Below, piece by piece: positions 294 to 63,377 of a stretch of DNA of 64,000 nt. Positions within the stretch are counted from its first letter, which is position 1, and every line of letters starts with the position of its first letter. The stretch is from Candidatus Peregrinibacteria bacterium HGW-Peregrinibacteria-1 (lineage in GTDB: Bacteria; Patescibacteriota; Gracilibacteria; UBA1369; LOWO2-01-FULL-3): NCBI GenBank assembly GCA_002839505.1, contig PGYE01000001.1:585995-649994 (forward strand). Reading direction: 5' to 3'. The translations under genes were made by a program, and so were the position numbers. The notes under the pieces are model-generated. The model was not told where the DNA came from. It made no database searches and saw only the letters and a program-made list of their open reading frames with translations.

Positions 294-620
294 CTATTGG
301 CTTGAATGCTTATCAATAACCTCCTGAGTGTTTTTCACATGCATCGCAAACTCTTCCACCAATCGCACTGACTCCTCAATAGCTATATCTGAGAGCTTAA
401 TATTGCGATCTGTTAGATATTTATCTGCCGCATCACCTTCCATATCGGTAAACTCCGCGAACTCATCCTCCGACAGCATATCCGCCAGCCGTAGGATCAC
501 GGCCTCATCCACGCTATCGCTAAACTGGGCGGCAATTGACTCCTTTTCTTCAGCCGGCAAATCATCAATGCCCATCGCTTTAAAGAGTTCTTCAAGGTTC
601 AAATTATCAGTATTGCTCAT
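294..620 (-). CDS. Small acidic protein, DUF5663-like
   Basis: 108 aa; LEELFKAMGIDDLPAEEKESIAAQFSDSVDEAVILRLADMLSEDEFAEF resembles DUF5663 proteins of Patescibacteria (recalled, not searched). Confidence 0.6.
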   Translation of the reverse strand: MSNTDNLNLEELFKAMGIDDLPAEEKESIAAQFSDSVDEAVILRLADMLSEDEFAEFTDMEGDAADKYLTDRNIKLSDIAIEESVRLVEEFAMHVKNTQEVIDKHSSQ

Positions 621-668
621 AGTATTTAAATTTTATTTTTGTATAAATTAACTTTTGATTGGTAAATA

Positions 669-3668
669 TTATCTGTTGTTTATCTGACCATTTAACATCT
701 TCCAAGAATACTCAGTGTCAAACAATCTCTTGGCAACCTCACCTGAATCCAGATTAGCACGGCTGGCAATACTTTCAACAGTAGCTTTATCAAACGTTAT
801 TTTGTCGTGATTCCAGAAGCGTTTCAAGGACTCCGTGTTTTCCGACATGTTCAAGAGATCCGACCTGATTGCTACACGATCCGATGCATCCATCTCAGGG
901 AATAACCTGTTAAAGATATCATATAAACCAGGATCCTTATCCATCACTCCACCGGCTTTCAATACCGGCATATCATCATCTGGAATCTCAAAGGTCAATT
1001 TTTCACCCTTATTCAAGGCCTCTAGAAACTCAGAACCCGTCCCCGGCGGAGTAATCACATTATTGATCGCATTATTAGTATCACCAGCGATATCAGCGGG
1101 ATTCAGAGGAACATTTAACCTTGGATCAATGGGTTTCAGCTGCTCATCAAGTAGACTGGTGCCCCCATTACCGACTTTTGTGAACCCTTCTGGCCCAGAA
1201 TCAGGTACTGGTGGCGTAGTGCCAGGCACTGGCCCTGGAGGAGTGATGCCTGGGTCAACTGGGGGAGTGGTGCCAGGCCCTGGATCAGGTCCAGGAGGAG
1301 TGGTACCTGTATCACCTTGTTCCCACCAAAAACCTTCTTCTGTATCAACTCCAGGCCCCGGTGGCGTCGCAGCATCTCCGCCACCAAACACGGCATCCAC
1401 AGCTTGCGAAGCCCCATATCCCAGTGCTAAAGATGCTCCAATTGCAGCACCGTATTCTCCTATGCGCCTCTTCCATAGGTTTTCTTGCTGTTTCTCCAGT
1501 TCTTTTAATTTAGTTTCAAACTCAGCATTAAGCCACTCACTCATTTTTGTAATCCTCTGAGCAGGACTGTCTTCATATAAAAATATTGCACCATCTTGTT
1601 CCAGTTTTCTATTAATGCTTGAAATCATACCAGCCTTAACATTGTCCATATCAAAATTCGCCAGACCCGGAGTTTCAAACAATTGTCCGTTAGCTGATTG
1701 ACCAGCGTCTCTTACCATAGTTTGACGACCAGATTGTCTGACAGCCTTCTGGTGATAACCAGCATATGAATTCCCACCAACCATCTTATAGCCGGCTCTC
1801 TTCGCAGTATCATGAAGTAACATTGTGGAAGCACCTTTTAGACCCATAACCACTCCAAAACCTAATGGTCCACCCAAGGCTCCTCCCGCTACTGCGAGTG
1901 ATACACCTAATGCCGTTCGATATTTCCACTTTATTCTTGACCATTTACCAAGCATCTCTCTCGAACCTTCCAAAGCCTTGCTCAACACTCCTGACTTATC
2001 TTTTTTATATTCAATACGCTTCTTGGTTATCTCTCGACTGGTCTTAAAGAAGGCATCAATTCTGTTAGACATAAACATCAACCTCTGAGTTTTATCAGTG
2101 AGGTCAACACCATTAGCCGCTGCTTCCGTTTCTTGTTTCAGTGTCCCAAGTAGCCCCTCTCTGGCTGGATCTAAAGTTAGCGCCTTCTCCTTCCCCTTTG
2201 ACTCTATCGCTTTCGCATAATCGGAAACAGCCACCTCTGGCGTGAATTCTCGATATCTCACCTCTAGATTTTTGCCATTTTTTACAATCTGCGCTCGATT
2301 TCCGGACCGTGCCATCGCTAAGTTACGAAGGATTGCAATCTGTTCCACAGTCATAGAAGCACCCCCCTGAATATAGACGTATGTCTCTTCAGGAGTACCA
2401 GAAGGAACCATTTGATCTGGACTATCTATATTAATTTCATGAGCACTAAAATACCTAAGCATCTCTTCAGCAAAGTTTGCTTTAGTAATCTCGGGTAAGT
2501 TTTGTTCACGTTCTTCCTCACGTTCTTCCTCACGTTCTTCCTCACGTTCTTCCTCACGTTCTTCTTCACGCTCTTCCTCACGTTCTTCTTCTCGCTCTTC
2601 TTCGGCCAAGTCTAATATTCGCCTTATTCTCTCAGCAGAAGTGCCTAAGCAATTTGCCACATTAGCTATGTTTTGCTCTTCTGTATTTTGATCTTCTGTT
2701 TCATGATTTACTTCCATCTCTGCGGTCATAGCATGTTTCACAAACCCGATTGCATCAGAGTCGTCCGGTATGAGCTCATCTAAAGTAAGGTCAGGATTTT
2801 CATCAAAGAGGCTCAGTAGTTGGGGGTAATCACTATCCGCCAGTAGGCGGTTGGCTTCTCCTAGTACTTCTTCATCGATCGGATTTTTTAACGATTCACT
2901 CATCTTAGGTTTTGTTAAGGAAGGTTTAATTATACCACTATCAGTGCTGGAGTCAAGCTTCGTTGAAGCTTCCTCCTCAGTCTCTTTTTGCTTTGGTCTC
3001 CCACTTTCAGCCAGTTTTTGCATAACAAATTCTCTTCTTTTCTCATCAGTTATAGCCGTTATGTTATCCTCCAAATAATCCTCCGCCCCCTTCTCAATAA
3101 ATACTGATACCGCCGTCTCAAACATTTCGTCCGAAAATGAATTAATACTACCAAAAATTTCATCCGCCAATTTAACAGTCAACTTATTTCTGCTTTTCCG
3201 TATAAAACCAAACATCTCCTCACCTTTACCGCCATCAAGCAGAGACTTCACCATCATAGGTGTCAACACCCTTACGCTCTCAAGATTTTCAGCCAATAAA
3301 TCTACATGTCCTTCTCTAAATAACCTTTCAGCCCTCTTCTTACGCTCCGACCTATTGGCCGCCCTGTCAAGAAAAAGCTTGACAGCAGCACTATCCCATT
3401 TCATTGTTGATGGATCTAGCTTCGGCACACCTTTTATTGTATACACAACTTCACCAGCATCACCCCTATCTACATCTATTGATGTAACACCATCTAATTC
3501 AAGGACAACTCTTTCTACATCCAGCCGAACCTCACCTCTTATTTCATCTATCCGGTGCACCACCTCACGATCAACGCCATCCCCTTTCTCTTGTACGGTA
3601 AGCGTATCAACTGGCTCAGCTCCTTCTAAAGGCTTTCCATTATTTGTAGTTTTATTACCACTAGACAT
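669..3668 (-). CDS. Large multidomain hypothetical protein with (REEE)n repeat, central hydrophobic region and Pro/Gly-rich segment
   Basis: 999-aa ORF; EEEREEEREEER tract, hydrophobic AALGVSLAVAGGALGGPLGFGVVMGL-like segment, TTPPGPDPGPGTTPP tract. Confidence 0.8.
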   Translation of the reverse strand: MSSGNKTTNNGKPLEGAEPVDTLTVQEKGDGVDREVVHRIDEIRGEVRLDVERVVLELDGVTSIDVDRGDAGEVVYTIKGVPKLDPSTMKWDSAAVKLFLDRAANRSERKKRAERLFREGHVDLLAENLESVRVLTPMMVKSLLDGGKGEEMFGFIRKSRNKLTVKLADEIFGSINSFSDEMFETAVSVFIEKGAEDYLEDNITAITDEKRREFVMQKLAESGRPKQKETEEEASTKLDSSTDSGIIKPSLTKPKMSESLKNPIDEEVLGEANRLLADSDYPQLLSLFDENPDLTLDELIPDDSDAIGFVKHAMTAEMEVNHETEDQNTEEQNIANVANCLGTSAERIRRILDLAEEEREEEREEEREEEREEEREEEREEEREEEREQNLPEITKANFAEEMLRYFSAHEINIDSPDQMVPSGTPEETYVYIQGGASMTVEQIAILRNLAMARSGNRAQIVKNGKNLEVRYREFTPEVAVSDYAKAIESKGKEKALTLDPAREGLLGTLKQETEAAANGVDLTDKTQRLMFMSNRIDAFFKTSREITKKRIEYKKDKSGVLSKALEGSREMLGKWSRIKWKYRTALGVSLAVAGGALGGPLGFGVVMGLKGASTMLLHDTAKRAGYKMVGGNSYAGYHQKAVRQSGRQTMVRDAGQSANGQLFETPGLANFDMDNVKAGMISSINRKLEQDGAIFLYEDSPAQRITKMSEWLNAEFETKLKELEKQQENLWKRRIGEYGAAIGASLALGYGASQAVDAVFGGGDAATPPGPGVDTEEGFWWEQGDTGTTPPGPDPGPGTTPPVDPGITPPGPVPGTTPPVPDSGPEGFTKVGNGGTSLLDEQLKPIDPRLNVPLNPADIAGDTNNAINNVITPPGTGSEFLEALNKGEKLTFEIPDDDMPVLKAGGVMDKDPGLYDIFNRLFPEMDASDRVAIRSDLLNMSENTESLKRFWNHDKITFDKATVESIASRANLDSGEVAKRLFDTEYSWKMLNGQINNR
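2506..2604. repeat. 12-bp in-frame tandem repeat (cgttcttcctca)n encoding REEE
   Basis: About 8 copies of cgttcttcctca with minor variants read directly. Confidence 0.85.
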
Positions 3669-3847
3669 CGGTGTTTTTAAAAATAAATCTTGAAATTATA
3701 CATCATAACCGGCCCAATGTCAAAACCACAACTTCCACAAAACCCCTCAGCCCAAGATCCATCCCAAAACGACCCCCCATTACAGCACTTTTATCTCAAA
3801 AGAATTTATGATATAATAAACGGATTAATTTAATTCAAACTTCTCAA

Positions 3848-5836
3848 ATGCGAGATTATAGAAATCACAAATTCCTTTATGGGATCGAGTCCAGGCTCCT
3901 TCGGGAAACACCTGAGTTTAAACTCACACCACCCGATCTCATGTCCGAAAGAACCCCTCAGGATGGAGTTTTGGAGAATGCAAAAATTCAAGAAATGCAT
4001 CAATCTCAGCGAGAACGCCTTAAAGTCGAAATACCTGAGCATCCTACAATTGATGCAACCTCTGAAATTCCTAAGATCATCGCCCCGGCACCTTCCGCGA
4101 AAGAAAATCCGGAAGCTGAAAAGACTGGAGTCACACTACCTGAATCCCGCATGTTGGATCGCGAAAAATATCAAGAATCCGTGAAAAAGCAGAATGTTGA
4201 TGAACTGGTCAAGTATTTTGATGTTTCCAAAATTGTTACCGAAAGTATGAAAAGTCCGGTTATTCCCGAGACTTTTTCTGTCACCAACGAACACAATTTA
4301 AAAACCGCCTACGAGTACTTCATCAGCATCGGAATCAAGGAAGATGACATTTTTAAAGACACCTTTGCAATTCTTCTGCAGGCGATCAACAGCAACCCTT
4401 ACGAAAAAGACCCTGCCCAAATGGCCTTGTTCAAAAATCCCGATGCCAACCTAAACGAAATAAGACTCCTCCAGCCCGGCGACTTCGGCAAAGACTTTGC
4501 CACCGCTTATCAAAATTTCAACCTCATGAGATCCCTCTCCGCGAAAGCCAATAATGGCCTCATCAGCGCCGTCACTCACGCTAAAGAACGCGCTAAAACC
4601 GACGGCACCGGAGCACTCGACGATGTCAAAGAGTTTGGCAAAGACATTGCTGGAGCATTCAGTAAAGCCTGGAGAGAAAAAGACTGGGTAAAACTCGCAC
4701 TCTTCGGTGGGGGAATATTCGCCACCTACAAATTGATTCAGACCATCTTCCCAAAGGGGGAATCCGGTAAAGGAGGAAAATGGTTTAAAGGACTGGCGCT
4801 ATTAGGTGTTGCCGGAGTCGGAGTCGGATACCTCCTCAAAGAATCCGGACACGACCTAATTGGAGACGCCTTTGGCAAAAACACCGACAAAGAGCTCTTC
4901 GGCCCCATGAAGGAAATAGTGGAAAAACACGACCTCTTAAAAAACCGCAACATTGACTTTGAAACCATGGCACGAATATCACAAGTCGATGCCGCCGGAC
5001 TTGACGAGCTGAAAGAAAACGCCCAAGGAAGCCGCAAAATAGCCCCAAAAAAATACCCCAGCATCTTCAAACTCGACGAATTCGATCATCCCGGCAAATC
5101 AGAAAAACTTTATAATGTTGCCAGCGGTCTCGAACAAATATACTACAACATAATTCAAGAAGCCGACAAAGAACGCTACGGCAAATTAACCTACCAACAA
5201 TTTTTAGGCAGACACCCTGGCATAACAGTTGCCGGAATAGTCTCAATCGCAACACTCCTCGAAAATATGCCAAGGCTCCAAGCCCAGGCCGAACAATATC
5301 AGTCCGCCAAAGAGACCCTCGTCAAAGTATTCGGCTCAGAAAATGTCAAATTCAGCCTCGAAAAAGATCTTGGCATCAACGAACAGGGCAATCTAAAAGT
5401 CCGCATCATGGAATTCCCGATTTTACTTGTTCCGACAGCCCGCGGCTACCAACTATCCTTCGGCACCGGCGAAACCCCTGAGCCTTATGAGGTAGGGGAA
5501 GTCATTAATTTAATTACTGAAGTTATTTTATCGCATCCCAATTATGACGGACAAGTACTCTCCCAAGACTCCATAGAAAAAGCCCACGACACCACCACGG
5601 AATTTTTGAAGGCGGTAGTCGAAGAAGCTTACAAGAAAAAATTTGAAATAACTGAAACATCCACCACACAAATAACATCTCAGTACAAATACGGAAAATG
5701 GCAAATCTACAAAGACGGCACCCTCGCCGACAAACTCGTCATAACAATTAACCCACGCGGAAGAGTCGAAATTGAAGACACATCCGAGGATGAAGAGCAG
5801 GAAGAGGAGGCTTCACCGGAAGCAACAGAAGAATAA
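3848..5836 (+). CDS. Hypothetical membrane-associated protein with a double hydrophobic segment
   Basis: 662-aa ORF; WVKLALFGGGIFATYKLIQTIF...WFKGLALLGVAGVGVGYLL. TATAAT at 3812-3817 upstream. Confidence 0.8.
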   Translation: MRDYRNHKFLYGIESRLLRETPEFKLTPPDLMSERTPQDGVLENAKIQEMHQSQRERLKVEIPEHPTIDATSEIPKIIAPAPSAKENPEAEKTGVTLPESRMLDREKYQESVKKQNVDELVKYFDVSKIVTESMKSPVIPETFSVTNEHNLKTAYEYFISIGIKEDDIFKDTFAILLQAINSNPYEKDPAQMALFKNPDANLNEIRLLQPGDFGKDFATAYQNFNLMRSLSAKANNGLISAVTHAKERAKTDGTGALDDVKEFGKDIAGAFSKAWREKDWVKLALFGGGIFATYKLIQTIFPKGESGKGGKWFKGLALLGVAGVGVGYLLKESGHDLIGDAFGKNTDKELFGPMKEIVEKHDLLKNRNIDFETMARISQVDAAGLDELKENAQGSRKIAPKKYPSIFKLDEFDHPGKSEKLYNVASGLEQIYYNIIQEADKERYGKLTYQQFLGRHPGITVAGIVSIATLLENMPRLQAQAEQYQSAKETLVKVFGSENVKFSLEKDLGINEQGNLKVRIMEFPILLVPTARGYQLSFGTGETPEPYEVGEVINLITEVILSHPNYDGQVLSQDSIEKAHDTTTEFLKAVVEEAYKKKFEITETSTTQITSQYKYGKWQIYKDGTLADKLVITINPRGRVEIEDTSEDEEQEEEASPEATEE

Positions 5837-5873
5837 ACATTAATAATAAAAACAAAACCTAAAACAACAATCC

Positions 5874-6041
5874 ATGAATAAAACAACCCTCGAAGAAGAA
5901 AAAAAACTGGACTACCTCATGGCTCTACTCAAGAAACAACAAATTTATAAAAGCCAAGTTGAAGCCAGCCACCTCCGTGAAATGATCAAAGCCAGCGGAA
6001 AAGGCGACCAACTTCTCGAATTTTATTCTCAATTTATTTAA
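5874..6041 (+). CDS. Small hypothetical protein (55 aa)
   Basis: ATG to TAA ORF: MNKTTLEEEKKLDYLMALLKKQQIYKSQVEASHLREMIKASGKGDQLLEFYSQFI. Below the track cutoff; fits cleanly between the 662-aa and 83-aa genes. Confidence 0.65.
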   Translation: MNKTTLEEEKKLDYLMALLKKQQIYKSQVEASHLREMIKASGKGDQLLEFYSQFI

Positions 6042-6058
6042 ATCTCACCTCAAACACT

Positions 6059-6310
6059 ATGTCACAATCAAACATCAAACTAACACCGCAAGAGTTTACC
6101 GAGCTCCTTCACCAGACATCACTTGATGCCGAGCAAAAACAAATGGTAATTGACCTACTACCACTCCTAACTCCCGACCAGATCAATCAAGTCGCCGAAG
6201 AACTCCGCAAAAACGCTCGCGAATTTGACCGCATCCTCACCAACATGGAATCCGAGCAAAACAAAGCAATCCTAGATCACGAAATCAAACAAAAACAAAA
6301 TAATCAATAA
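6059..6310 (+). CDS. Small hypothetical helical protein (83 aa)
   Basis: Intact ORF ending 2 nt before the 1028-aa ORF starts; co-directional. Confidence 0.7.
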   Translation: MSQSNIKLTPQEFTELLHQTSLDAEQKQMVIDLLPLLTPDQINQVAEELRKNAREFDRILTNMESEQNKAILDHEIKQKQNNQ

Positions 6311-6312
6311 CG

Positions 6313-9300
6313 ATGACACCGGAGCCAACCCCAAACACACCACAGGAACAACTTTCTCCTCCAGGAACCGATGAAGTAATAACTCCCAATCCCGAAATTC
6401 AGGCAAACCCTGAGAAATTTGCCGATGCCGCTCAAGAGGAGCTCGACAAAGAGAAAAGCCCTGAAAAAAAACGCGCCCGCGAACGCGTCCGTGAACTGGC
6501 CAAAAAAACCAAAGACAAAGTCGACACAACACTCAAAGTCAGTAGTGGCATGAAAGCCGCTATGGGAGTTGGAGGAGTAATTCTCGGCGCAATCCTCATC
6601 AGCAAAATGTTCAGCAGCAAAAAAGAAACCGAAAGCAGCAACAACTCCACCCTCAAAACCATCCTCGGAATAGGGGCCCTCGGAGCCGGACTTTACGCCC
6701 TCGACAAATACACCGGCCTCCCATTCGGCAAAAAATACTCTCGCTACATCGACAATTTATTAAAAGGCGACGACAAAGAAAAAAAGGCAAAAGAAAAAGC
6801 CGAGAAAAAAGAAGCCGAAAAGCCCAAAGGGCCACCGGAGGGATATATAACATATGGGGCAGGAATCAACGAAACACTTGAAAGCACGGCTCCCGAACTA
6901 CAAAAATCTATACGATCCAATAGAGAGGGGCTTGGTCTTGCCGCATGGTTCACCGGTGCATTTGGTGGACTAGTTGATGCTGTCAAAGGAACAGGCAAGA
7001 TGGGAGGTGGAGCATTCTTGAGTCTAGCTCAAGGCACTGTTGACACAGTAACTGGACACCCAATTGCTTCAGTTTTTGCCGGAGCCGCAATTGTTAGCAA
7101 TATGGACAAAATTAAATTCCCAGAAGACTCTGAGTTTCGATACATGCCGAAAGACCCAACAAAACGTGCAGATCACTTTAAGAGAATGTTCAAGACAGAA
7201 GAAGTACAAGCATGGTTGGACGAGCAAGACCTGCATCTCGACCACGCCCAAATTGACAAAATATCAGGGATTATAGGTAACCCCGATGAACTCAAAAAAT
7301 TTCTCAATGAACATGTAAAAGTGGATAAGCTTGCTGATATGACCGTCGAAGCTATAGCTCTTTCCAATAGAAAAACATTGAATTCGCATAATATTGAATT
7401 TCTTACCAGGCTAAGGATCGATCTCAACAATCAATTTGCCCAAAACCACCAAGCTGAAGAATTAAAAACGCAATACAAGAACGCAATCAAAAACGCGCAA
7501 TATCGACTCCGCCAAAATTCGATAGAGAAGTCAATGACCGAAGAGCAGCTCAATCAACACCGCAAAGAAATCCTAGAACAACTGCTTGCAAACTTAAAAT
7601 CAATAGAAATATTAGACATACAGCTTGGAGAGGACAACATATATCGGTATGCCATCAGAAATGAAGAAGGATTTTTTGGTTGGGACCAATATACTCCTCT
7701 ATTCGTAGACCCCAGCTTATCCTTAGCTGACCAATCGGAAAAAGCCAATGACGCCATGCTCGAAAGTGCCGGTTATCTTGCAGCATTTGGAGACAATGGC
7801 TTCATTGAAGGTATTCGGGAACGCCTCGGATCCGTTAAAGAACGAGTCGATCAAGGAGAATCGGTTATTACCATTGTTGGAGGAGAAGCTCTTGAGATGA
7901 AGCTTGATACTCTTGAAACATTATATATTGGTCCTTTCAAGATCGTTGGGAACCTAGTTGCAGGTGCATGGAATGGGGCGACAGGAGAAGATGGAACGCT
8001 GGAAGTTGCCACAGCTTTTCAAGAATACGGCAAGGGAATAGCTGCAATGGCGATGTTTGGAACATCAGTAGGAATTGCCAAAGCAGTTACTTCATTGGTG
8101 ACCAAAGGTCCAAAAACAACATATCTCAACATTAAAAACCGAGGTCTTTTGGCTCCAGGGAAGGCAATACTTGGATGGGCCGCTTGGCCATATAAGGGTG
8201 CCGTTAAGATAAAAGACTTACTATATCCACCGATCCGAGAAATGGTGCACATGGGAGGGCCAATCAAAGGAATTTCAGAACATGCTGGAAATCTAAATAA
8301 ACTTTATAGGGGACGAATGTCCGTACACCTAGAAGAATTGAAGAACAGTGCAATAGCACGGTTTCTCCGCAATCCGCTTAGCGGCAAAAACTATCGGGGG
8401 AGAATAGGGGATGCCCGTAGAGCGCTTGTTGAACGGCAAAAGGTATATAATGAACTACTTGAGCACAGAATAAAGCATGGCCTAAGTCCAACCGCAGTAC
8501 CACTTAGTGATATTGATAGAACAAGATTAATTAAGGGACTGCACGAGAGAGGTCAAATGACAATGGCTGCGGCAGAAGCGATACTTAAACCTAGAGGAGC
8601 AAGCCGAATCGACATTATAATAAATAAATTTGAATCCCAAGCACTCATTCCACAGCAAGAACATGTGAAAAAATTTCATGCCTTCTTGGAGCTTGAGCAT
8701 ATAAGAAATGAAGTAGCCGTTGCACAGGAATCTAAAGGACCAGCACGTGCTGAAAAAATAAAATATGTAAACGAGAAACTGAAAAAAATAGGTATTACAG
8801 ATTTTGAACTAAATGATAGCAATTTCGATGCCACCCAAAAACGCTTGTCTTCCATCATTGACAACCCCGAAGAATTTAAAAAAGTCACCGGAATTGATCA
8901 TCCTTCGCAAGCCTCCCCCGAAACTCCCTCCCGCCCGCCTCTCGACGCCGAAGCTAGACTCAGAGACACCCGTACCGCCCTCAAGGCATCGCACGAGGCC
9001 GCCGTTCGCGGAGACCTCACCCCCGAGCAATATCGCCAAGCCCTTAAAGAAGCGCAATCAAACCTCCGCTCAGCTGGAATCGAAGTCGACCTTGGAAAAA
9101 TTGATGACATCAAGACTCCACAAGATGTTGCTACCCACGCTACACAACGAAGTACTCAAGTTAACGGAATTATCGAGGCACTCGGCACCCCCGAGGGAAC
9201 CGCAAGAATGCAGGCCGATACCATTAAAGCTGGAAGTGCAAAACCCGCCCCAACACCCGCTGATGTCCCCGGAGCGAAAAGAGTTGGTGGTGACATTGAA

Positions 9301-9399
9301 GCCGGCCGCCAACACCCCGGTGCGACCCCCGACAAACCGACCGGCTCCCCCGACGCACCGCATCGTAGACCCAAAGCACCAGGAAGACTTGGTAGATAA
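6313..9399 (+). CDS. Giant hypothetical membrane-associated protein, N-terminal paralog of the following gene
   Basis: 1028-aa ORF; N-terminus shares TLKxILGIGxxGAGLYALDKYTGxPFGKKY with the 1334-aa product. Confidence 0.85.
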   Translation: MTPEPTPNTPQEQLSPPGTDEVITPNPEIQANPEKFADAAQEELDKEKSPEKKRARERVRELAKKTKDKVDTTLKVSSGMKAAMGVGGVILGAILISKMFSSKKETESSNNSTLKTILGIGALGAGLYALDKYTGLPFGKKYSRYIDNLLKGDDKEKKAKEKAEKKEAEKPKGPPEGYITYGAGINETLESTAPELQKSIRSNREGLGLAAWFTGAFGGLVDAVKGTGKMGGGAFLSLAQGTVDTVTGHPIASVFAGAAIVSNMDKIKFPEDSEFRYMPKDPTKRADHFKRMFKTEEVQAWLDEQDLHLDHAQIDKISGIIGNPDELKKFLNEHVKVDKLADMTVEAIALSNRKTLNSHNIEFLTRLRIDLNNQFAQNHQAEELKTQYKNAIKNAQYRLRQNSIEKSMTEEQLNQHRKEILEQLLANLKSIEILDIQLGEDNIYRYAIRNEEGFFGWDQYTPLFVDPSLSLADQSEKANDAMLESAGYLAAFGDNGFIEGIRERLGSVKERVDQGESVITIVGGEALEMKLDTLETLYIGPFKIVGNLVAGAWNGATGEDGTLEVATAFQEYGKGIAAMAMFGTSVGIAKAVTSLVTKGPKTTYLNIKNRGLLAPGKAILGWAAWPYKGAVKIKDLLYPPIREMVHMGGPIKGISEHAGNLNKLYRGRMSVHLEELKNSAIARFLRNPLSGKNYRGRIGDARRALVERQKVYNELLEHRIKHGLSPTAVPLSDIDRTRLIKGLHERGQMTMAAAEAILKPRGASRIDIIINKFESQALIPQQEHVKKFHAFLELEHIRNEVAVAQESKGPARAEKIKYVNEKLKKIGITDFELNDSNFDATQKRLSSIIDNPEEFKKVTGIDHPSQASPETPSRPPLDAEARLRDTRTALKASHEAAVRGDLTPEQYRQALKEAQSNLRSAGIEVDLGKIDDIKTPQDVATHATQRSTQVNGIIEALGTPEGTARMQADTIKAGSAKPAPTPADVPGAKRVGGDIEAGRQHPGATPDKPTGSPDAPHRRPKAPGRLGR

Positions 9400-9418
9400 T
9401 TATTGAAAGCCCAAAAAC

Positions 9419-12400
9419 ATGTCAGATCCCAATCCACAACCTGAGAAAACTCCCACTTTGGACAGCTCCGAAGAACTGCCTAGTATTCAAGAAAACCCCG
9501 AACAATTCCACAAGGCCGTCCAAGAGCAAAACGAACAAGACAACAAATCCCCCGAAGCCATCAAAGCTCGCGAACGAGCCGCCGAGCTCAGCAGCCAAAC
9601 CAAAGAAAAAGTTGATTCCATCCTCAATCTCAGCAAAGGAGCTAAAATCGCCATCGGCGTAGGCGGTATTGCGTTAACCGCACTTTTAATTAGCAAATTC
9701 CTCGACAGCAAAGATGAAACTGACACCAGCAACAACACAACCCTAAAAGCCATTCTTGGCATCGGCACCGCCGGTGCCGGACTTTACGCCCTGGACAAAT
9801 ATACCGGAGCACCATTTGGCAAAAAATATGCCGGATTCATTGACAAACTTTTCAGCTCCGACGACAAAAAAACTACCGAAAAATTAAAAACACCAAAAAG
9901 TGACACCCCCCAACAAACCACTACACCCCCAGAAAACAAACCAGAAGCCCCAGCTCCAGCCCCAACCAGAAGCCCCGAACAACTAACCCTCACACCGGAA
10001 GAATGGGACAAAATCTGCGAAACATTCCCCGAATATCTTGCAGAATTCCCCACCCACATTGATGCTATAGATGACCTACAGCAAAAACTCCTATCCGGTA
10101 CCCACACCATCGTCATTCGTGACAGCGAAGTCTTTCTCAGCGGAACAACCGAAGTATATCTCGGCCCAATCGAGCTCATCTCTCAAATATTTGCCGATGT
10201 CCTCTCCGACCCAATTCACACCGCCCAGTTTACCGAAGAATCCACCCCCGAGGGAGACATTCCCGTACTTAGAATCGGAACTGTCGCCGCGCTTGGTACC
10301 GCGCTAGTTACCAGTCACACCATCAATACATCATGGGAAGGCCTAAGAAATTGGCGCCAAAGGCAATCGACAGTCCAGCAAACCTCCCCGGCAGAATCCC
10401 TAAACGATGCCGAACTACAGGATGCACACGATAAAATCCGACAAAATCTACCAGAATACGACCTCTTTGACCCCACCGAAACCAAGTTTAAACGAGCCAC
10501 CGCCCTACTAAAGGCCGAAGGCTTCAACACTATTGGCGCCCTCTCGATCCTCTACATGCTCGAAAGCAACAAGAACCCTGAGCAAAAGAAAGGAATGATT
10601 TCATATATCGTTGCGGGATACTCATTATATGAAGCTCAAAATCTCACCAGTAAGGGACTCGGAAAAATTAAAAGAGTCCAATCAGCCGTCAAAACCACCC
10701 CTTTTCTGCGAAGCCCTAAAGCTATGACCTATACAGCACTTGCCTTAGCGGTCTTCATTGGATTTCAATTTGAAGATGGTGTTGCCGCCTTTTTAAGCGA
10801 AGTAATGCCCGACTTTGGAAAATTCAACCACATCGTCTACGGCGAGATGGAAGATCTAATCAATTATTCCGGTGCCACCGAATTCATCAGAATTGCCGGC
10901 CGACAAGCAGAAAGAGTATTACAGCGACGAGCCCCTCAAGCCGTCGCCGAAGCTTTTGCCAAAAAAGTAGCCAAAGATTCACAGCGCCGCATCTCACGAA
11001 AACTTATAACCTGGGCCCCCACAAAAGTAGCCGAATGGATTGCCAGAAGATTTGGTACCCGCGGTGCCATATCAGCAATCTCCAAGGCCATAGCTGCTGG
11101 AGTACCTCCCGTCGGACCAAAAGGTGCTGCAATCAAAGGTGCACTAATGCTTGCGGATGTCGCTCTTACCGTTACTCTTGCGGCGGACATAGTCGAAATT
11201 ATTGATGCTGTAATTACCGCCAGAAAACTCAATGAACTCATGGAAGAACGACAAAAAGCCCCCATCAAAAACTTCACCCCACTTGATAAACAGACCGAGC
11301 AATGGTTTGCCGACTTCATGGGGAGTATGGGCAAATCAACTGATGCCGTCACCCCTGAAGACCTCGAGGAAATACTTAACAGCTCACGAGTACCGCTCAA
11401 ATTTAAAATCGAACGCGAAGGTATCGTCGGACACGAAGAGTATTCATATCAATCCGGCATCATTACCGCCGCAAAAATTGTTTACATGGATTCCGACGGC
11501 CAAATGGACAGCACTGAAATGACCGCCGATGACTTCCAGAACCTCCCCGTTCCAGCCCCCACTGCCCAAGAACTCCAAGAACAGCTTAAAGCATCGCCCT
11601 CTTGGCTCAATTCACCGCAAAAATTCTATGAATTCCAGATAACCCAGATGAGACTTCTTACTCAGTGGAGTGGCATGGCCTATGACATCGTTGACCCCGA
11701 TACCGTACGGATATATCGATTAGACGCCGACGGCTATGTCCTCACCATCAAAAGAATCAGTGAAGACAAATGGCAAATACCAGAATTAAACGACATCCAC
11801 TTTAAAACATTCCTCGAAGCCTCATCAATGGCCAACCTAACCAATAAATTCGTCCAAGACATCGTCAAAGACGGCTCCCGAGTCGGCCACTTCGAAACCG
11901 ACGGTCTATCTATCGACTTCGACCGCACCCAGCACTGGGCGGCCCTCGACACCGAATTCATGTCCGACTACGACAAAGAAGACGCCCACCACGACCTCGA
12001 AGGCGAAAGGGAGCGCTGGTCCTATTTTTACAGCAATGTCCTCGGCATCCCACTGACACGCATGGTTGAAACCCTCAATAGGGGACTACACCTACATGGA
12101 AGACTCGACGACTGGGATTTTGGACAAGAAGCAACAGCCCCCACTCAAGAAGAATTTAACCGCCAACTAGAATACAACGCCCCTAGCCTCGACGAAGACC
12201 CCCAAGCCTTCTACAAACACCAACTCGACCACGCCAAAGGCAGCACCGTCTGGAAAGGAATGAAATACCAAATCCAAGACGACAACAAGGTAACAATCTA
12301 TCGCGAAACTCCCGACAGCAAGCTCCCAAAACTCCAAGAAACCGACCCTTCTCGCTACGCCCTCACAGTCGTGAGAACCAACGACCACTGGATCATCCCC

Positions 12401-13423
12401 GAGCTCCAAAACTTCAAATTCGACAGCTTCATCGCCGCTGCCGCCCTCGCCAACCTCGCCAACGAAGCCATGACCAAAATCGACACCCGTCCTGTAAAAC
12501 AAGGACATTTTGAATACGACAAAGGACACCGTGGCATCGACTTCGACCCACAAAGCGGCCGCGACACCACCTATTACAAAGGCTACGACCCCGTCATCGC
12601 CCAAACCGACCGCAACGAGCAAAACAACTGGCTATACTTCTACAACAATGTCCTCAGCATCGACCACCAAACCATCATCCAAGCCCTAAATCAAAATCTC
12701 GCCCGCTACCAACTACTAGCTGGAATCGACGAAAACTCCGACCCCCTGACCTCCGAAACCAAAGAACTCAACATTGACCACATGTATCGTTTCCTCGGAA
12801 TCAGCTCAAAAGAAGAGCGCTACAGCAATCTCTTGAAAGAGACGCCATCTTGGGAAGATGATTTCAACCGCTTCTATACACACCAGCTCGACGGAACCAA
12901 AGAAATCACTGACTGGAAAGGACTCAAATACCAAGTAAAAGACAAAGACACCGTCATCATCTACCGCGACACAGACAACGGCCTGGAAAAAATCAACGCC
13001 GCCCATCCCGCCCGCTACAGCCTAACCGTCAAAAGAATCGCTGAAAACAAATGGGTCATCGAAGAACTCGACAACATCGAATTCGACAGCTTCATAAAAG
13101 CCGCCCTCGTATCAAACCTCGTCAACGACGCCCTCATATCTGTTGAAAACACGCCCAGCAACCGCACCGGACACTTTGAATACAGCGGCGGCGATATCGA
13201 CTTTGACCAAAAAGGCCCAGGCTACCAGACCTACTACCAAGGGTACGACCCCGTCCTCGCCGCCGCCGGCCACCCCGAAGAAAGAATGCGCCCACTATAC
13301 TTCTACAACCACGCCATCGGCGTCGACTCCGTCAAAATCATCGATGCCCTCAACCGCGGACTCAAATACATCAAGCGCGACCGCCAAAGCGAACCTAACG
13401 ACCCCCGAATCCGCAGGATGTAA
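9419..13423 (+). CDS. Giant hypothetical membrane-associated protein with three C-terminal tandem domain repeats
   Basis: 1334-aa ORF; repeats carry WSGMAYDI / WKGMKYQI / WKGLKYQV, LTxKRxxxxKWxIxEL and GHFExxxxxIDFD motifs. Confidence 0.85.
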   Translation: MSDPNPQPEKTPTLDSSEELPSIQENPEQFHKAVQEQNEQDNKSPEAIKARERAAELSSQTKEKVDSILNLSKGAKIAIGVGGIALTALLISKFLDSKDETDTSNNTTLKAILGIGTAGAGLYALDKYTGAPFGKKYAGFIDKLFSSDDKKTTEKLKTPKSDTPQQTTTPPENKPEAPAPAPTRSPEQLTLTPEEWDKICETFPEYLAEFPTHIDAIDDLQQKLLSGTHTIVIRDSEVFLSGTTEVYLGPIELISQIFADVLSDPIHTAQFTEESTPEGDIPVLRIGTVAALGTALVTSHTINTSWEGLRNWRQRQSTVQQTSPAESLNDAELQDAHDKIRQNLPEYDLFDPTETKFKRATALLKAEGFNTIGALSILYMLESNKNPEQKKGMISYIVAGYSLYEAQNLTSKGLGKIKRVQSAVKTTPFLRSPKAMTYTALALAVFIGFQFEDGVAAFLSEVMPDFGKFNHIVYGEMEDLINYSGATEFIRIAGRQAERVLQRRAPQAVAEAFAKKVAKDSQRRISRKLITWAPTKVAEWIARRFGTRGAISAISKAIAAGVPPVGPKGAAIKGALMLADVALTVTLAADIVEIIDAVITARKLNELMEERQKAPIKNFTPLDKQTEQWFADFMGSMGKSTDAVTPEDLEEILNSSRVPLKFKIEREGIVGHEEYSYQSGIITAAKIVYMDSDGQMDSTEMTADDFQNLPVPAPTAQELQEQLKASPSWLNSPQKFYEFQITQMRLLTQWSGMAYDIVDPDTVRIYRLDADGYVLTIKRISEDKWQIPELNDIHFKTFLEASSMANLTNKFVQDIVKDGSRVGHFETDGLSIDFDRTQHWAALDTEFMSDYDKEDAHHDLEGERERWSYFYSNVLGIPLTRMVETLNRGLHLHGRLDDWDFGQEATAPTQEEFNRQLEYNAPSLDEDPQAFYKHQLDHAKGSTVWKGMKYQIQDDNKVTIYRETPDSKLPKLQETDPSRYALTVVRTNDHWIIPELQNFKFDSFIAAAALANLANEAMTKIDTRPVKQGHFEYDKGHRGIDFDPQSGRDTTYYKGYDPVIAQTDRNEQNNWLYFYNNVLSIDHQTIIQALNQNLARYQLLAGIDENSDPLTSETKELNIDHMYRFLGISSKEERYSNLLKETPSWEDDFNRFYTHQLDGTKEITDWKGLKYQVKDKDTVIIYRDTDNGLEKINAAHPARYSLTVKRIAENKWVIEELDNIEFDSFIKAALVSNLVNDALISVENTPSNRTGHFEYSGGDIDFDQKGPGYQTYYQGYDPVLAAAGHPEERMRPLYFYNHAIGVDSVKIIDALNRGLKYIKRDRQSEPNDPRIRRM

Positions 13424-13496
13424 AACAAGATGGACAAGACTTCCACCAAGCAAATTTTGGAGCTGCTTATTTTTTGAGTGGACCACAATCCGCCCC

Positions 13497-13524
13497 TTGA
13501 CAAAACCACTCAATCCCCTAAGAT
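13497..13524 (+). promoter_or_regulatory. Putative sigma-70 promoter (TTGACA-N16-TAAGAT) for the 714-aa gene
   Basis: TTGACA 13497-13502, TAAGAT 13519-13524, start codon at 13545. Confidence 0.5.
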
Positions 13525-13544
13525 AACAAACCCTTAAACTTTCA

Positions 13545-15689
13545 ATGAACCAACCAAACACGCCACACACCCCACCAAATCGCTGGCAATCATTCCAAGA
13601 ACATACGAAGCAACTCGAACAAAAGCTCTACAGTGAAGACGGACTCAAACCCCTCATTACTCTCGAAGGACTCATCCGCGAGATTCCACACGCCCAAGAA
13701 TGGACCAATCGCGACATCGACCATGTCCTTAAAACTGCCCTCATCGCCACCCTACAATCCGCCACACATCAAGAACTTCTCGATGCCCTCAAGCAAGACG
13801 ACAACACCATCAACACAATCCTCGACTACATATCCCGAGAGATAGACAAACTCAAAAACACCAAAGCCACCGCCCAGGAAATTCTCGAAAAATTTCAGAT
13901 TCAATTCCGTCAATATAAAAACCAGATAGTTGGCACAGACAAACAGGTCCCCATCAATGAAAAAGGAAACAAACAATTTGAGCAAACGGAAATTCCCGTT
14001 AGCAAACTCGGATTACTCATAGAATATCTTCGTAAACAACACATTTATTCTGACGACATTTTTGTCTGCATCGGTGAAAACAAGCCAAAAACACGGAGAG
14101 AGACCACATATTTTCTCATAGAAATACCACGACTGAACCGCGGAATTCTAATCTGTGAAGACTATGGCGAAGCCACATATATCATTGACCTCTCGGAGCA
14201 TCGCGAAACCATTTTCGCCGCTACTAAAAGGCAACTCAAAGAATGTCATGGTGCCATCTCCATAGAACTCAATCTAGATGACCTTGAGAGCTGGTACAGC
14301 AATATCCATCAAGCAATATTTGGTGATAACATCGATAGTAAAGAAAAGCTCGACCTTCAGGATTTTGACGCACTCCGGGCCACAATAAGCCCAAAAATTA
14401 TAACCGAGCATATTCTCAAAAGCGAAGACATCAATACCCCTGAAAAATGGATGAACCTCAAAGGAAATGGCTACAGAGGACAGGGCCTCTCCAAGCCAAC
14501 ACTAAAAGTGCTAGGAATGGGATTACATGCAATCGCCACTATCTTCGGAGTCCAAGGCAATCCCATCGGTAGTCGATACACTATGGCCCAACTTGGAATT
14601 AAAATATTTGGACCACACCCCGCCTTTAACTTATCACCACGAAAAAAACTACCACCTGTAAGCCAAGAGGACATCACCCTTGAAGTATCCCAAAATGAAG
14701 AGATTAACACCCCCGAAAAATGGATGGCACTAATAATTCCAAATGAAGAAATTGAAGCAATCATAGGCGAACGAACCACCTTCAAATCTACAATGAAAAT
14801 CTGTGACAGGGGACTACATGGTGTTGCTAGGATATTTGGTATTCTCGGTAATCCTGAAAAATCCCCAAAGGTAATGGCCGAACTTGGGCGCAAAATGTTT
14901 GGAGAGCACCCAATATTTGAAATTCCCTCCGCCATAGAAAACATAAAAGCCCCCACAACCACAGAGATAATTGAAGCCATCATAACCAACAATAACATCA
15001 ACACTCCCGAAAAATGGATGTCCATTTTACACAGATATAAATACCAGATGCGCCTCAAGGGCCTAACTTTATTCTCAGTTGCCAAATTATTTGGACTCAC
15101 CGAGTCACCAAACCGATCCCAACACGCCATGGCAGAGCTCGGGAAAATAATTTTTAAAAACCCCGATCACCCCGCCTTTCAAGTTCCCGATAAGTCTAAA
15201 ATAACCATCCAAGATATTGAAAGAGCCATTTCTACCTCTTCGGATATTAATACACCCGAAGGCTGGATGCAGTTAACTGCCACTGAACGCAGTACTCATA
15301 AGATTGGAGGACTGACCTTAAGAGACATAGCCAAGCTCTACAACCTACCTCTAAAACCAAACAGATCCCGCTCTGACATGGCAGAGCTCGGCAAAATAAT
15401 ACTTAAAAACCCCGATCACCCTGCTTTTCAGATAGAAGAAACACCAGAAGCTAATCAAGAGGAAATAGTCCAAGAAGTGCTGGCCACAGCATCAATCAAC
15501 ACCTTAGATAAATGGATAGCACTAACGCAGAAAGAAAAATTAAAACTCAAAATTTGCGGTCTCGGCCTCTATGCAATCGCCGGAAAATTTGGGATCAAAG
15601 GAAATCCCTCCACCTCTTCCGCTATAATGAAAGAGCTCGGCGAAATCATCTTCTCAAAAATCATCTTCAGAGAAGACACTCCGTCTTGA
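13545..15689 (+). CDS. Hypothetical repeat protein with five HTH-like domains (INTPEKWM repeats)
   Basis: 714-aa ORF; INTPEKWM...GLxxxAxxFGxxxNPxxSxxxMAELGxxxF repeated five times. Confidence 0.85.
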   Translation: MNQPNTPHTPPNRWQSFQEHTKQLEQKLYSEDGLKPLITLEGLIREIPHAQEWTNRDIDHVLKTALIATLQSATHQELLDALKQDDNTINTILDYISREIDKLKNTKATAQEILEKFQIQFRQYKNQIVGTDKQVPINEKGNKQFEQTEIPVSKLGLLIEYLRKQHIYSDDIFVCIGENKPKTRRETTYFLIEIPRLNRGILICEDYGEATYIIDLSEHRETIFAATKRQLKECHGAISIELNLDDLESWYSNIHQAIFGDNIDSKEKLDLQDFDALRATISPKIITEHILKSEDINTPEKWMNLKGNGYRGQGLSKPTLKVLGMGLHAIATIFGVQGNPIGSRYTMAQLGIKIFGPHPAFNLSPRKKLPPVSQEDITLEVSQNEEINTPEKWMALIIPNEEIEAIIGERTTFKSTMKICDRGLHGVARIFGILGNPEKSPKVMAELGRKMFGEHPIFEIPSAIENIKAPTTTEIIEAIITNNNINTPEKWMSILHRYKYQMRLKGLTLFSVAKLFGLTESPNRSQHAMAELGKIIFKNPDHPAFQVPDKSKITIQDIERAISTSSDINTPEGWMQLTATERSTHKIGGLTLRDIAKLYNLPLKPNRSRSDMAELGKIILKNPDHPAFQIEETPEANQEEIVQEVLATASINTLDKWIALTQKEKLKLKICGLGLYAIAGKFGIKGNPSTSSAIMKELGEIIFSKIIFREDTPS

Positions 15690-27917: not shown

Positions 27918-28643
27918 ATGAGTAAACTCCCACAAGCATTCCAAGGCCTAGAAAAAGATACTTGCCCAGATGTGGCCTCGCGGAGACTCCAGCAAGAAAA
28001 ACCCGATAACGATGACCAAGAACTCACTTTCAACCCCGACCTGAAACGCTTCATGGACAAGGCCCCTCTTTCAATGAGAAAGCTTACGCCCGAACAAGTT
28101 GAATCAATTTTAACCCAGTTCAAAGCTAGATTTGACGAAATGCCTCACCTCCATGAGGGCTGTGACTGGGAAAGAGTAGAGACAGCACTGAGATCAAACC
28201 ACGAAGCCCTGCGAAGCATTGAAGAAATGGCAAGAATGGGACACGAACCCAATGTCTATAATTTTGATGACGAAGGTTGTGATATTGGAACCTGTAGCCT
28301 GGAAGAACCGATGAGCACCCGAGATTTTGTCTACAACCATCAGGCCGCCAGAATATTACTCGAAGAAGACCCTGACGACACATTTCAAGGGACGGCCGTT
28401 GAAGCCGCCGAGGAAATGGGACTAGAGTTGATCCCCCCTGAAAAGTACAAGAATGTCTTACAAGCCAAGGGCATCTTTGACAAGGATTCATACGGCTGGC
28501 TAGGGCTGGACGACGATACTCCCAGCATGCAGGCCCCCTTTGGACTAAGAGCAGTAGCTGAAGTTCACTGCTTCGCACATCCAATTACCTGTCATGATGA
28601 AAAATGGGGATGGCGCGGCACACTAAGAGTGCCATGGAAATAA
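27918..28643 (+). CDS. DUF4256-like protein
   Basis: 241 aa; FKARFDEMPHLHEGCDWERVETALRSNHEALRSIEEMARMGHEPNVYNFD...GTAVEAAEEMGLELIPPEKYKNVLQ...RGTLRV matches my recollection of the DUF4256 pattern. Confidence 0.75.
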   Translation: MSKLPQAFQGLEKDTCPDVASRRLQQEKPDNDDQELTFNPDLKRFMDKAPLSMRKLTPEQVESILTQFKARFDEMPHLHEGCDWERVETALRSNHEALRSIEEMARMGHEPNVYNFDDEGCDIGTCSLEEPMSTRDFVYNHQAARILLEEDPDDTFQGTAVEAAEEMGLELIPPEKYKNVLQAKGIFDKDSYGWLGLDDDTPSMQAPFGLRAVAEVHCFAHPITCHDEKWGWRGTLRVPWK

Positions 28644-60003: not shown

Positions 60004-60528
60004 TTAGATTTGCTCGCCATGAACAATCTTAATCCACAGCTCACGGATCAATTTTATTGGAGCTCGCATAAGTCTCGCAAGCGTACCCTTAATTTGACGC
60101 ATTCTCGCAACCAAATTGGTCATTTCAAAAAAGTTTCCGCCCTTTTGAGCCAACGCAACCTTTTTCTTAATATTTCTAAACTCTACATCAAGCGCCTTTT
60201 TGATTTCAGCCTTCATTACAGATGGCGCTGGAGCCTCCTCCAGGAGTTTTTTAATCCGTAGATCTCTACTCACGGGTGTCGCCGCCTTTGCCTTTCCCCC
60301 AGTAATGCTCGCTCCTTTGTCCTCACTAATACTCTCACCCAAAACCTCCGATACGCGTCCCGTCGTCTCAATTTCACCTTCAACTATGGCAACTTCCTCC
60401 GCCACAGCAGCGCCAACACTTTGTTTTCCACCTTCGAGTTCACGAGATTCGCGTTCATGCCTTTCTTCGCTTTTAGTGACATCAACTCCTCTCAAACCCC
60501 TATTTTTATTTAAATCTACAGAGCTCAT
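60004..60528 (-). CDS. Hypothetical protein with CPR-type C-terminal helical domain
   Basis: 174 aa; C-terminal FFEMTNLVARMRQIKGTLARLMRAPIKLIRELWIKIVHG. Confidence 0.65.
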   Translation of the reverse strand: MSSVDLNKNRGLRGVDVTKSEERHERESRELEGGKQSVGAAVAEEVAIVEGEIETTGRVSEVLGESISEDKGASITGGKAKAATPVSRDLRIKKLLEEAPAPSVMKAEIKKALDVEFRNIKKKVALAQKGGNFFEMTNLVARMRQIKGTLARLMRAPIKLIRELWIKIVHGEQI

Positions 60529-60659: not shown

Positions 60660-63377
60660 ATGCCAATTGAATTAGAGAAAGCCTACGAACCGGGGAAGTA
60701 CGAAGACCAAGTATATGCAAAATGGGAAAAATCCGGAAGTTTCTCACCGAAGCCATCAAGCGACAAAGAACCCTTCGTCATATCAATGCCCCCTCCAAAC
60801 GCTACAGGAACGCTACACCTCGGTCACGCCGTAATGATCGCCCTACAAGACATTATGATTCGCTACAACCGCATGCTTGGCAAGCCCACCCTTTGGATCC
60901 CCGGTACCGACCATGCTGCCATAGCCACCCAAAGCGTGGTTGAAAAAAACCTCATGAAACAAGGCGTCAAGAAACCACGCCAAGAGCTCGGACGCGAAAA
61001 ACTCCTCCAGGAGATTCGCGAATTTGTCGCAAACAGCCAAAGCACTATCAAGAACCAAGTCCGCAAAATGGGAGCCAGCTGCGACTGGACGCGCGAAAAA
61101 TATACTCTCGACCCTCAAATGAACACCGCTGTAAACAGAATGTTTAAATACATGAACGAAGACGGACTCATTTATCGCGGTGGCCGAATCGTCAACTGGG
61201 ACCCCAAAATGCAAACTACCGTTGCCGATGACGAAATGGAATATATCAGCGAAAAAACAAAGTTTTACTACTTCCAATTTGGACCAGTAGTAATTGGAAC
61301 CGCCCGACCCGAGACCAAATTTCTCGACAAGGTCATAGTTGTACACCCCGAAGACAAGAGATACCAAGACCTCATCGGCAAAGAATTCGAAATAGAATGG
61401 ATCAACGGTCCCACTAAAGCCCGCGTCATCGCCGACAGCTGCATCGACATGGAAATGGGTACCGGAGCAATGTCAATTACCCCGGCCCACAGCCTTGTTG
61501 ATTTTGAATTGGCCGAGAAATATAACCTTGAATCACCACAGATCATCGACTTTGAAGGAAACATCATGACTGAAGTTTCAGAGGAGTTTGGGGGAATGCC
61601 AATTGAAGAAGCCAGAGAAAAAATTGTTGAAAAGCTTGAAGAAAGGGGACTACTCATCAAAATAGACCATGAATACGAACACAACATCGCAATCAACTAT
61701 CGCGGAAAAGGGCTTATCGAACCACAAATCATGAAACAGTGGTTTATCGATGTTAATAAAAAAGTTATCGACTGGAAAGGCGCAAAACTAAGCATTAAGG
61801 AGGTGCTTCAGGATGCCGTCAACAGCAAAATGATCAACATAATCCCTAGTCGTTTTGAAAAAACATACTTCAACTGGATCGATAATCTTCGCGATTGGTG
61901 TATCTCACGACAAATCTGGTGGGGCCACCAGATTCCAATCTGGTATCAACTCACCGCAGAGCAATACAAGACATTCATCGAATCTGGAGAGCAATCCAGC
62001 ACCCTTCTCAATGTCATGAAGGTCGAGTCCGAGCCGGTATTCAGCGAAAGCAAGCCCGATGGGGATCACTGGATACAAGACCCCGACACCCTGGACACCT
62101 GGTTTTCATCAGCCCTCTGGACATTTTCCACGCTAGGCTGGCCGGAGAATACCGAAGACTTCAAAAACTTCCACCCCACCTCCGTCCTCGAGACCGGATA
62201 TGACATTATATTTTTCTGGGTAGCCAGAATGATCCTAGCCTCCACCTACACCCTCCGACGCGAAGGAATTTCCGAGGAAAAATCCATCCCCTTTAAAAAC
62301 ATTTACCTTCACGGACTCATTCGAGATCGACGAGGCAAAAAAATGAGCAAATCCCACCCTGAAACATGTATCGACCCGCTCGAAATGATTGAAAAATACG
62401 GTACCGATGCTGTGCGTCTAAGTCTGATAATCGGCAACACTCCGGGTAATGACATGCGGCTCTATGAAGAGAAAATTAGCGGCTACCGCAACTTTGCCAA
62501 CAAGCTCTGGAACGCCTCCCGATTTGCCCTAAGCAATATCGACGAAGCCGACCTTCAAAAGGAATTCACCGCCGACCTCATAACAAGCGACGCCGATCGC
62601 TGGATAGTCTCAAAAACCCAGGAACTCATAACGGCAACCCAAGCCGACATCGAAAATTTCCGTTTCTCAGATGCCGGAAACCGCCTCTATGAATTCACTT
62701 GGAACATATTTTGCGACTGGTATTTAGAAATATCAAAAACCCAGTTCAACCCATATGTCCTTGGATATGTCCTCAAAGCATTACTAAAAATGTTGCACCC
62801 GTTCACTCCATTTGTCACCGAGACAATATGGTCACACCTACAGGAAAAAGAATTGTTGATCGCATCCCTTTGGCCAGAACAAAAAGAAGAATACACCTTC
62901 CCCGCATCCGAAGAACTCCTCGAGACCGTCATTAACATAATATCTCTAATCAGAAGCAAGCGCGCCGAACTAAAAGTCCCTCCAGCAAAACTCATCAAAG
63001 CAAACATTGTCGCCACCCCAGGAAGTAAACTTCAAGAACAGAGCGAAATAATCATAAAACTCGCCCGCCTTTCCGCATTAGAATTCATCGCCTCAGACTC
63101 TACCACCACTGACGGTAGTGTCGTAATAATTGAAAACGGCATTGAAATAAGACTGCCAATGGAAGATCTTATCGACAAAGAAACTGAAATAAAACGCTTA
63201 ACCAAAGAAATAGCCAACAAAGAGCAGGCCATTAAAAGTCTTGAAGGAAAACTAGGCAACCCCGGATTCCTCGACAAAGCGCCACCAGAAGTAGTCGACG
63301 GCCAACGGGAAAAACTGAGAGAGGAACAAGAATCCTTAAGTGGACTAATACAAAACCTCGAAAAAATAAAAAACTAA
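60660..63377 (+). CDS. valS: Valyl-tRNA synthetase
   Basis: PPPNATGTLHLGHAVMIALQDIMIRYNRM (HIGH), RRGKKMSKSHPETCIDP (KMSKS). Confidence 0.97.
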   Translation: MPIELEKAYEPGKYEDQVYAKWEKSGSFSPKPSSDKEPFVISMPPPNATGTLHLGHAVMIALQDIMIRYNRMLGKPTLWIPGTDHAAIATQSVVEKNLMKQGVKKPRQELGREKLLQEIREFVANSQSTIKNQVRKMGASCDWTREKYTLDPQMNTAVNRMFKYMNEDGLIYRGGRIVNWDPKMQTTVADDEMEYISEKTKFYYFQFGPVVIGTARPETKFLDKVIVVHPEDKRYQDLIGKEFEIEWINGPTKARVIADSCIDMEMGTGAMSITPAHSLVDFELAEKYNLESPQIIDFEGNIMTEVSEEFGGMPIEEAREKIVEKLEERGLLIKIDHEYEHNIAINYRGKGLIEPQIMKQWFIDVNKKVIDWKGAKLSIKEVLQDAVNSKMINIIPSRFEKTYFNWIDNLRDWCISRQIWWGHQIPIWYQLTAEQYKTFIESGEQSSTLLNVMKVESEPVFSESKPDGDHWIQDPDTLDTWFSSALWTFSTLGWPENTEDFKNFHPTSVLETGYDIIFFWVARMILASTYTLRREGISEEKSIPFKNIYLHGLIRDRRGKKMSKSHPETCIDPLEMIEKYGTDAVRLSLIIGNTPGNDMRLYEEKISGYRNFANKLWNASRFALSNIDEADLQKEFTADLITSDADRWIVSKTQELITATQADIENFRFSDAGNRLYEFTWNIFCDWYLEISKTQFNPYVLGYVLKALLKMLHPFTPFVTETIWSHLQEKELLIASLWPEQKEEYTFPASEELLETVINIISLIRSKRAELKVPPAKLIKANIVATPGSKLQEQSEIIIKLARLSALEFIASDSTTTDGSVVIIENGIEIRLPMEDLIDKETEIKRLTKEIANKEQAIKSLEGKLGNPGFLDKAPPEVVDGQREKLREEQESLSGLIQNLEKIKN

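Follow-up and report, generated by a model that had tools for sequence, protein, structure and literature searches.

Despite the loss of many pathways, genomes of about 1 Mb reserve 10–18 kb at one fixed site for giant proteins that are named in no reference library. If they form one apparatus, it would be a strong candidate for how a barely studied class of bacteria interacts with other cells. The locus analysed here lies in a window of 64,000 nucleotides, part of the single-contig genome (998,424 bp) of Candidatus Peregrinibacteria bacterium HGW-Peregrinibacteria-1. The first-pass annotation had described it as eight open reading frames (108 and 999 aa on the minus strand; 662, 55, 83, 1028, 1334 and 714 aa on the plus strand), and their coordinates and strands were all correct. 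The features of the locus are:

294–620, minus strand: acidic, helical protein of 108 aa, encoded 48 bp past the end of the 999-aa gene and a candidate for the small 'a' partner
669–3668, minus strand: 999-aa giant, candidate 'A' subunit judged from position and layout
3669–3847: divergent promoter region of 179 bp between 999/108 and the 662 operon
3848–5836, plus strand: 662-aa protein, homologous to giant 'B' in the tig-linked operon that family relatives carry
5874–6041, plus strand: 55-aa small ORF, operon member after a gap of 37 bp
6059–6310, plus strand: 83-aa helical protein with weak iterated-profile relatives
6313–9399, plus strand: 1028-aa giant, relative of the giants at L084 (valS-linked) and L004
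9419–13423, plus strand: 1334-aa giant with an N-terminal module, a middle region conserved among giants of the class and three tandem C-terminal alpha/beta domains
10883–13357, plus strand: conserved C-terminal part of the 1334-aa giant with three copies of the 'T' domain, a class-specific domain
13545–15689, plus strand: 714-aa protein of a separate family, 121 bp past the 1334-aa gene

The frames had been said to fill 15 kb, and 97% of positions 294–15689 is indeed coding. When 100 sequences of matching composition were generated with a first-order Markov model, stop-free frames ran to 290 codons at most, and the giant reading frames are real genes. Gaps within the plus-strand block 662-55-83-1028-1334 are only 2–37 bp. 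A perfect TTGACA-17-TATAAT promoter sequence for 999/108 is found at 3723–3695 (minus strand), and an extended −10 sequence, TGATATAAT, lies ahead of the 662 operon at about 3808–3816 (plus strand).

Searches against known families gave little. None of the eight window proteins matched Pfam or NCBIfam above cut-off, and Pfam domains above cut-off were equally absent from five giants of the wider class and from seven proteins that family relatives encode; adhesion and cell-wall-binding domains were likewise without a Pfam match above cut-off in the window giants and scanned relatives. Matches of the window proteins to PHROGs were weak and partial, none significant. Those to PADLOC were also no more than weak and partial, and a defence system was set aside on that basis. 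PDB sequences did not match profiles of the 1334 C-terminus or the 662- or 714-aa proteins, the last of which also lacks a Pfam match above cut-off. The predicted structure of the 1334 C-terminal region gave no credible Foldseek match, either in PDB (best E 0.06) or in BFVD (best E 0.0075, TM about 0.1), and tblastn of the 1028-aa protein returned zero matches in 50,697 phage records. The initial impression that no enzymatic family could be recognised therefore agrees with the absence of a strong HMM or structure match in Pfam, NCBIfam, PHROGs, PADLOC, PDB and Foldseek of PDB and BFVD. The one exception proposed at that stage, a DUF5663 domain (PF18908) in the 108-aa product, is not supported, as the protein scores 13.7 bits, short of the 23.7-bit cut-off, and the whole genome has no match at E ≤ 1.

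The proteins had also been credited with hydrophobic hairpins, charged repeats, Pro/Gly linkers and tandem domains, and each of these was recovered. Hairpins occur in 662, 1028 and 1334, while 999 has one hydrophobic stretch above cut-off. The 999-aa protein consists of a helical N-terminal half, a charged stretch of EERE repeats (encoded by a 12-bp unit repeated 7.9 times), Gly-rich hydrophobic stretches, a Pro/Gly linker that is evident in the sequence and corresponds to a 24-bp repeat, and a C-terminal domain. The 662-aa protein has a single hairpin at about residues 281–330; its predicted model is of low confidence (mean pLDDT 58) and contains long helical segments. In the 1028-aa protein an N-terminal hairpin module (about 76–130) is followed by more hydrophobic segments (208–261) and a basic, Pro-rich C-terminus. 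The tandem domains are three copies of one domain of ~160–190 aa in 1334 and repeats of ~75–80 aa in 714. An AlphaFold model of 1334 residues 489–888, within which the first T-domain copy was modelled, has a mean pLDDT of 78, with many T-domain blocks above 90. A Gly-rich hairpin is present in 17 examined giants, with a mean net charge of +0.6 before the hairpin, +2.4 in its loop and −0.2 after it. The hairpins support a predicted insertion into the membrane, while their charges leave the topology unsettled.

Conserved synteny had been suggested as a check on the locus, and it proved to be strong in related genomes. Of 30 family genomes, 27 yielded a gene for trigger factor (tig), and the count covers the 22 relatives of the same family whose assemblies extend 1 kb or more upstream of it. 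All 22 carry a divergent giant gene there, starting 16–205 bp away. These tig-adjacent giants are mostly 850–1461 aa when complete, and some are split or ended by the end of a contig. Longer assemblies continue into further giants of 1–2.7 kaa, so that the operon holds between two and four giants (about 0.9–2.7 kaa). The recurring order is A - a (124–159 aa) - B - b - C - c - d; some genomes lack A and a. The locus is real and conserved, and it is apparently undescribed: the open-licence literature searched held no description of a giant-protein locus of this kind.

The window block is also upstream of tig, but it is co-directional with it, reversed in order and separated from it by the 714-aa gene. 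One inversion would explain this difference, and the B-to-C block of the window genome has apparently been inverted relative to tig. A link to the relatives is the 662-aa protein, which matches a B-family profile built without it (HMM-HMM 99.7% over residues 110–546) and has pairwise matches in nine relatives and profile matches in family relatives. On this profile evidence it is a member of the B giant family, including the conserved hairpin region. A similar array stands elsewhere in a genome of family f24 (locus L179, genome G174), where proteins of 1123, 112 and 584 aa are followed by one of 1668 aa that is matched by the B profile. This is a second giant array in a genome that has the valS-linked giant as well, and it is broken by a short gene that by eye resembles a DUF559-type endonuclease.

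The divergent pair is less easily placed. Searches of 196 relatives and of 211 genomes from the phylum found no sequence relative of 999. Two matches were treated as chance, one (L006) to a coiled charged stretch and the other, the best in the phylum (L163), to a gene read as PheT (phenylalanyl-tRNA synthetase beta). HMM-HMM comparisons of 999 with the A giants and of 108 with the small 'a' proteins were not significant. The 108-aa protein is weakly similar, in collinear fashion, to the 112-aa protein next to a giant in L179 (phmmer 9.9 bits; HMM-HMM not significant). Position and layout alone make 999/108 candidate counterparts of A/a. Relatives of the 55-aa ORF were looked for and none was found, while the 83-aa protein has weak iterated-profile relatives of 76–136 aa in giant-gene loci across the class.

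The 1028- and 1334-aa giants connect the locus to the class more widely. Residues 489–888 of 1334 correspond to the conserved C-terminal region, some 370 positions long and containing the T domain, of a class-wide giant family. The 1334 C-terminal region is present in 24 of 359 class genomes, with pairwise matches down to E 1.4e-18 and an HMM-HMM value of 98%; among 241 phylum-wide genomes it occurs in three, the window genome and two of the same order, all of the same class. The term 'CPR system' used in the first-pass annotation is accordingly too broad, since this domain was found only inside the Gracilibacteria/Peregrinibacteria class. Some class members read through TGA, in keeping with an assignment to the GTDB class Gracilibacteria. 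In the f24 loci seen, the T-domain giant adjoins valS (the flanking gene cluster was identified as valS by reading its sequence), and in f18 one giant, a relative of 1028, is also near valS. The T-domain giant of the window is not, as its valS (60660–63377) is 47 kb away. The giant is absent beside the window valS and may have moved to the tig locus. The neighbouring 174-aa protein (60004–60528) is weakly like a small gene flanking a valS-linked giant (L077; pairwise E 8e-4).

The N-terminal hairpin modules of 1028 and 1334 are 56% identical over 153 aa. As this mutual identity is far above the likeness of either to outside relatives, duplication of the module is recent, and the pair would have arisen with it. 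One ancestral giant may have been split into 1028 and 1334, for which HMM-HMM comparison gives weak support; no sequence link between these two and the C giants of the family was found.

The giants of the relatives are constrained by purifying selection yet diverging far faster than tig. Across four pairs, dN/dS of A, B and C is 0.13–0.46, compared with 0.05–0.09 for tig. In the congeneric pair L113/L115, identity is 95% for tig, 53% for A, 87% for B and 71% for C, and dS reaches 1.23 (A) and 1.46 (C) against 0.26 for tig, or about five times as high. In this one pair, the values suggest exchange with divergent alleles, as though the replacement had involved entire genes.

What could such proteins do? 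We tentatively favour a reading in which 999/108 and 662-55-83-1028-1334 are subunits of a membrane-anchored complex, a scaffold or contact apparatus, that is specific to this lineage within the Gracilibacteria/Peregrinibacteria class. The giants would be anchored in the membrane through their hairpins and would form a single complex together with the small helical proteins, with T domains acting as interaction modules; the rapid divergence may mirror change in an external partner, either a host or a competitor. The original terms 'dedicated' and 'membrane-associated' are backed by the fixed chromosomal position, the purifying selection and the hairpins. In favour of the complex also stand the synteny beside tig, the homologies of 662, 1028 and 1334, the short intergenic gaps, the divergent promoters, and the cysteine depletion and the two published precedents given below. 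Against it, no signal peptide is apparent and no adhesion, peptidoglycan-binding or enzyme domain was recognised. The loops of the hairpins carry, on average, a more basic charge than their flanks, a misfit with a simple cytoplasm-facing topology, yet it is difficult to see how an N-terminal domain of 280 aa would be exported in the absence of a signal. Further points against it are that 999 and 108 are tied to A and a by position and layout alone, that 1028 and 1334 have no sequence link to the C giants, and that some housekeeping proteins are cysteine-poor as well. It is more doubtful that the locus encodes a class-specific multi-subunit machine that engages other cells, built of giants without relatives in the libraries searched and of small helical partners. 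The B family, the T domain and the hairpin module are defined targets for further work, and the position upstream of tig is a marker for related genomes. Behind the membrane-anchored complex rank, in this order, surface attachment, an internal scaffold and an exported effector.

Placing the giants outside the cell, as a surface-exposed apparatus binding a host or prey bacterium, is unlikely, although several observations point that way. The earlier suggestion of host attachment or a surface complex was a guess, as no signal peptide is apparent in the window giants on inspection, no adhesion domain was found and the hairpin charges are indecisive. Sortase motifs and S-layer domains were not recognised either. 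Fast divergence, with the raised dS of A and C in one congeneric pair, fits surface exposure, as does cysteine depletion: the four window giants contain 2 Cys in 4023 residues, compared with 82 in the 14571 residues of other window proteins (Fisher p 7e-7). In relatives the contrast is milder, with 1.6 Cys per 1000 residues in the giants and 3.4 in flanking genes, and cysteine-poor housekeeping proteins also exist, tig among them. A precedent is Candidatus Vampirococcus lugosii (Absconditabacteria), of the same broad clade, whose ten longest proteins (1392–4163 aa) are, in the available part of the report, inferred to be in the membrane, as are the window giants, and are proposed to act in host recognition and attachment (PMC8080830). 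Those proteins carry WD40, PKD, fibronectin, saposin and alpha-2-macroglobulin domains, none of which was recognised in the window giants, and the same part of the report describes no conserved locus beside tig (PMC8080830). Very large extracellular proteins (1219–3861 aa) are also found in a related lineage, Candidatus Peribacteria (Peregrinibacteria), where they concentrate strain variation (PMC4736985). A 14-gene cluster in that lineage encodes cysteine-rich proteins (about 7%), mostly with signal peptides, quite unlike the window giants (PMC4736985).

A scaffold or cytoskeleton-like assembly on the cytoplasmic face, tethered to the inner membrane and shaping or organising a very small cell, is quite unlikely. 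It would account for the absence of signal peptides, the long helical segments in the low-confidence 662 model, the small acidic helical partners and the fixed position beside tig, but an internal structural protein would not usually diverge so fast, and there is no resemblance to known cytoskeletal proteins.

Loci for LXG/WXG100 effectors of type VII secretion place a large protein with hydrophobic segments beside small helical proteins, a layout that the window shares. Its giants could by this comparison be contact-dependent effectors with membrane-inserting hairpins, delivered with their small partners by dedicated export into neighbouring cells, and fast divergence would suit such a role. 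The 83-aa product gave a weak, non-significant WXG100 match (NCBIfam TIGR03930; 15.1 bits against a cut-off of 44.85), but the window matches neither an LXG domain nor a toxin tip, and immunity genes, variable toxin tips and known toxin domains also went unrecognised. Single-copy synteny is moreover fixed across the family, unlike that of polymorphic toxins, and this role is improbable. A prophage or mobile-element remnant is largely refuted: tape-measure proteins can look similar to proteins that are large, helical and interspersed with hydrophobic stretches, but PHROGs, phage-record tblastn and BFVD gave nothing significant, no phage genes were recognised nearby and the chromosomal position is fixed in 22 relatives.

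The 714-aa gene had been counted as part of the locus but is better removed from it, as its relatives sit in unrelated neighbourhoods and it has its own promoter-like site. The protein has a conserved N-terminal domain with the motif VEIPRLNR...GEATFV, followed by the HTH-like repeats, and is possibly a DNA-binding repeat protein. Repeat copy number differs among relatives, and L098 carries several tandem paralogs. Upstream of the window, at 570.9–580.1 kb of the genome (L066, 4441–13560), a cluster encodes multi-TM proteins of 337 and 329 aa and proteins of 1587 and 742 aa in which TM segments precede repeats that look PKD-like by eye; it is a candidate surface apparatus in the same genome. 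Within the window, a 241-aa protein at 27918–28643 has 25 Cys per 1000 residues, in sharp contrast to the giants.
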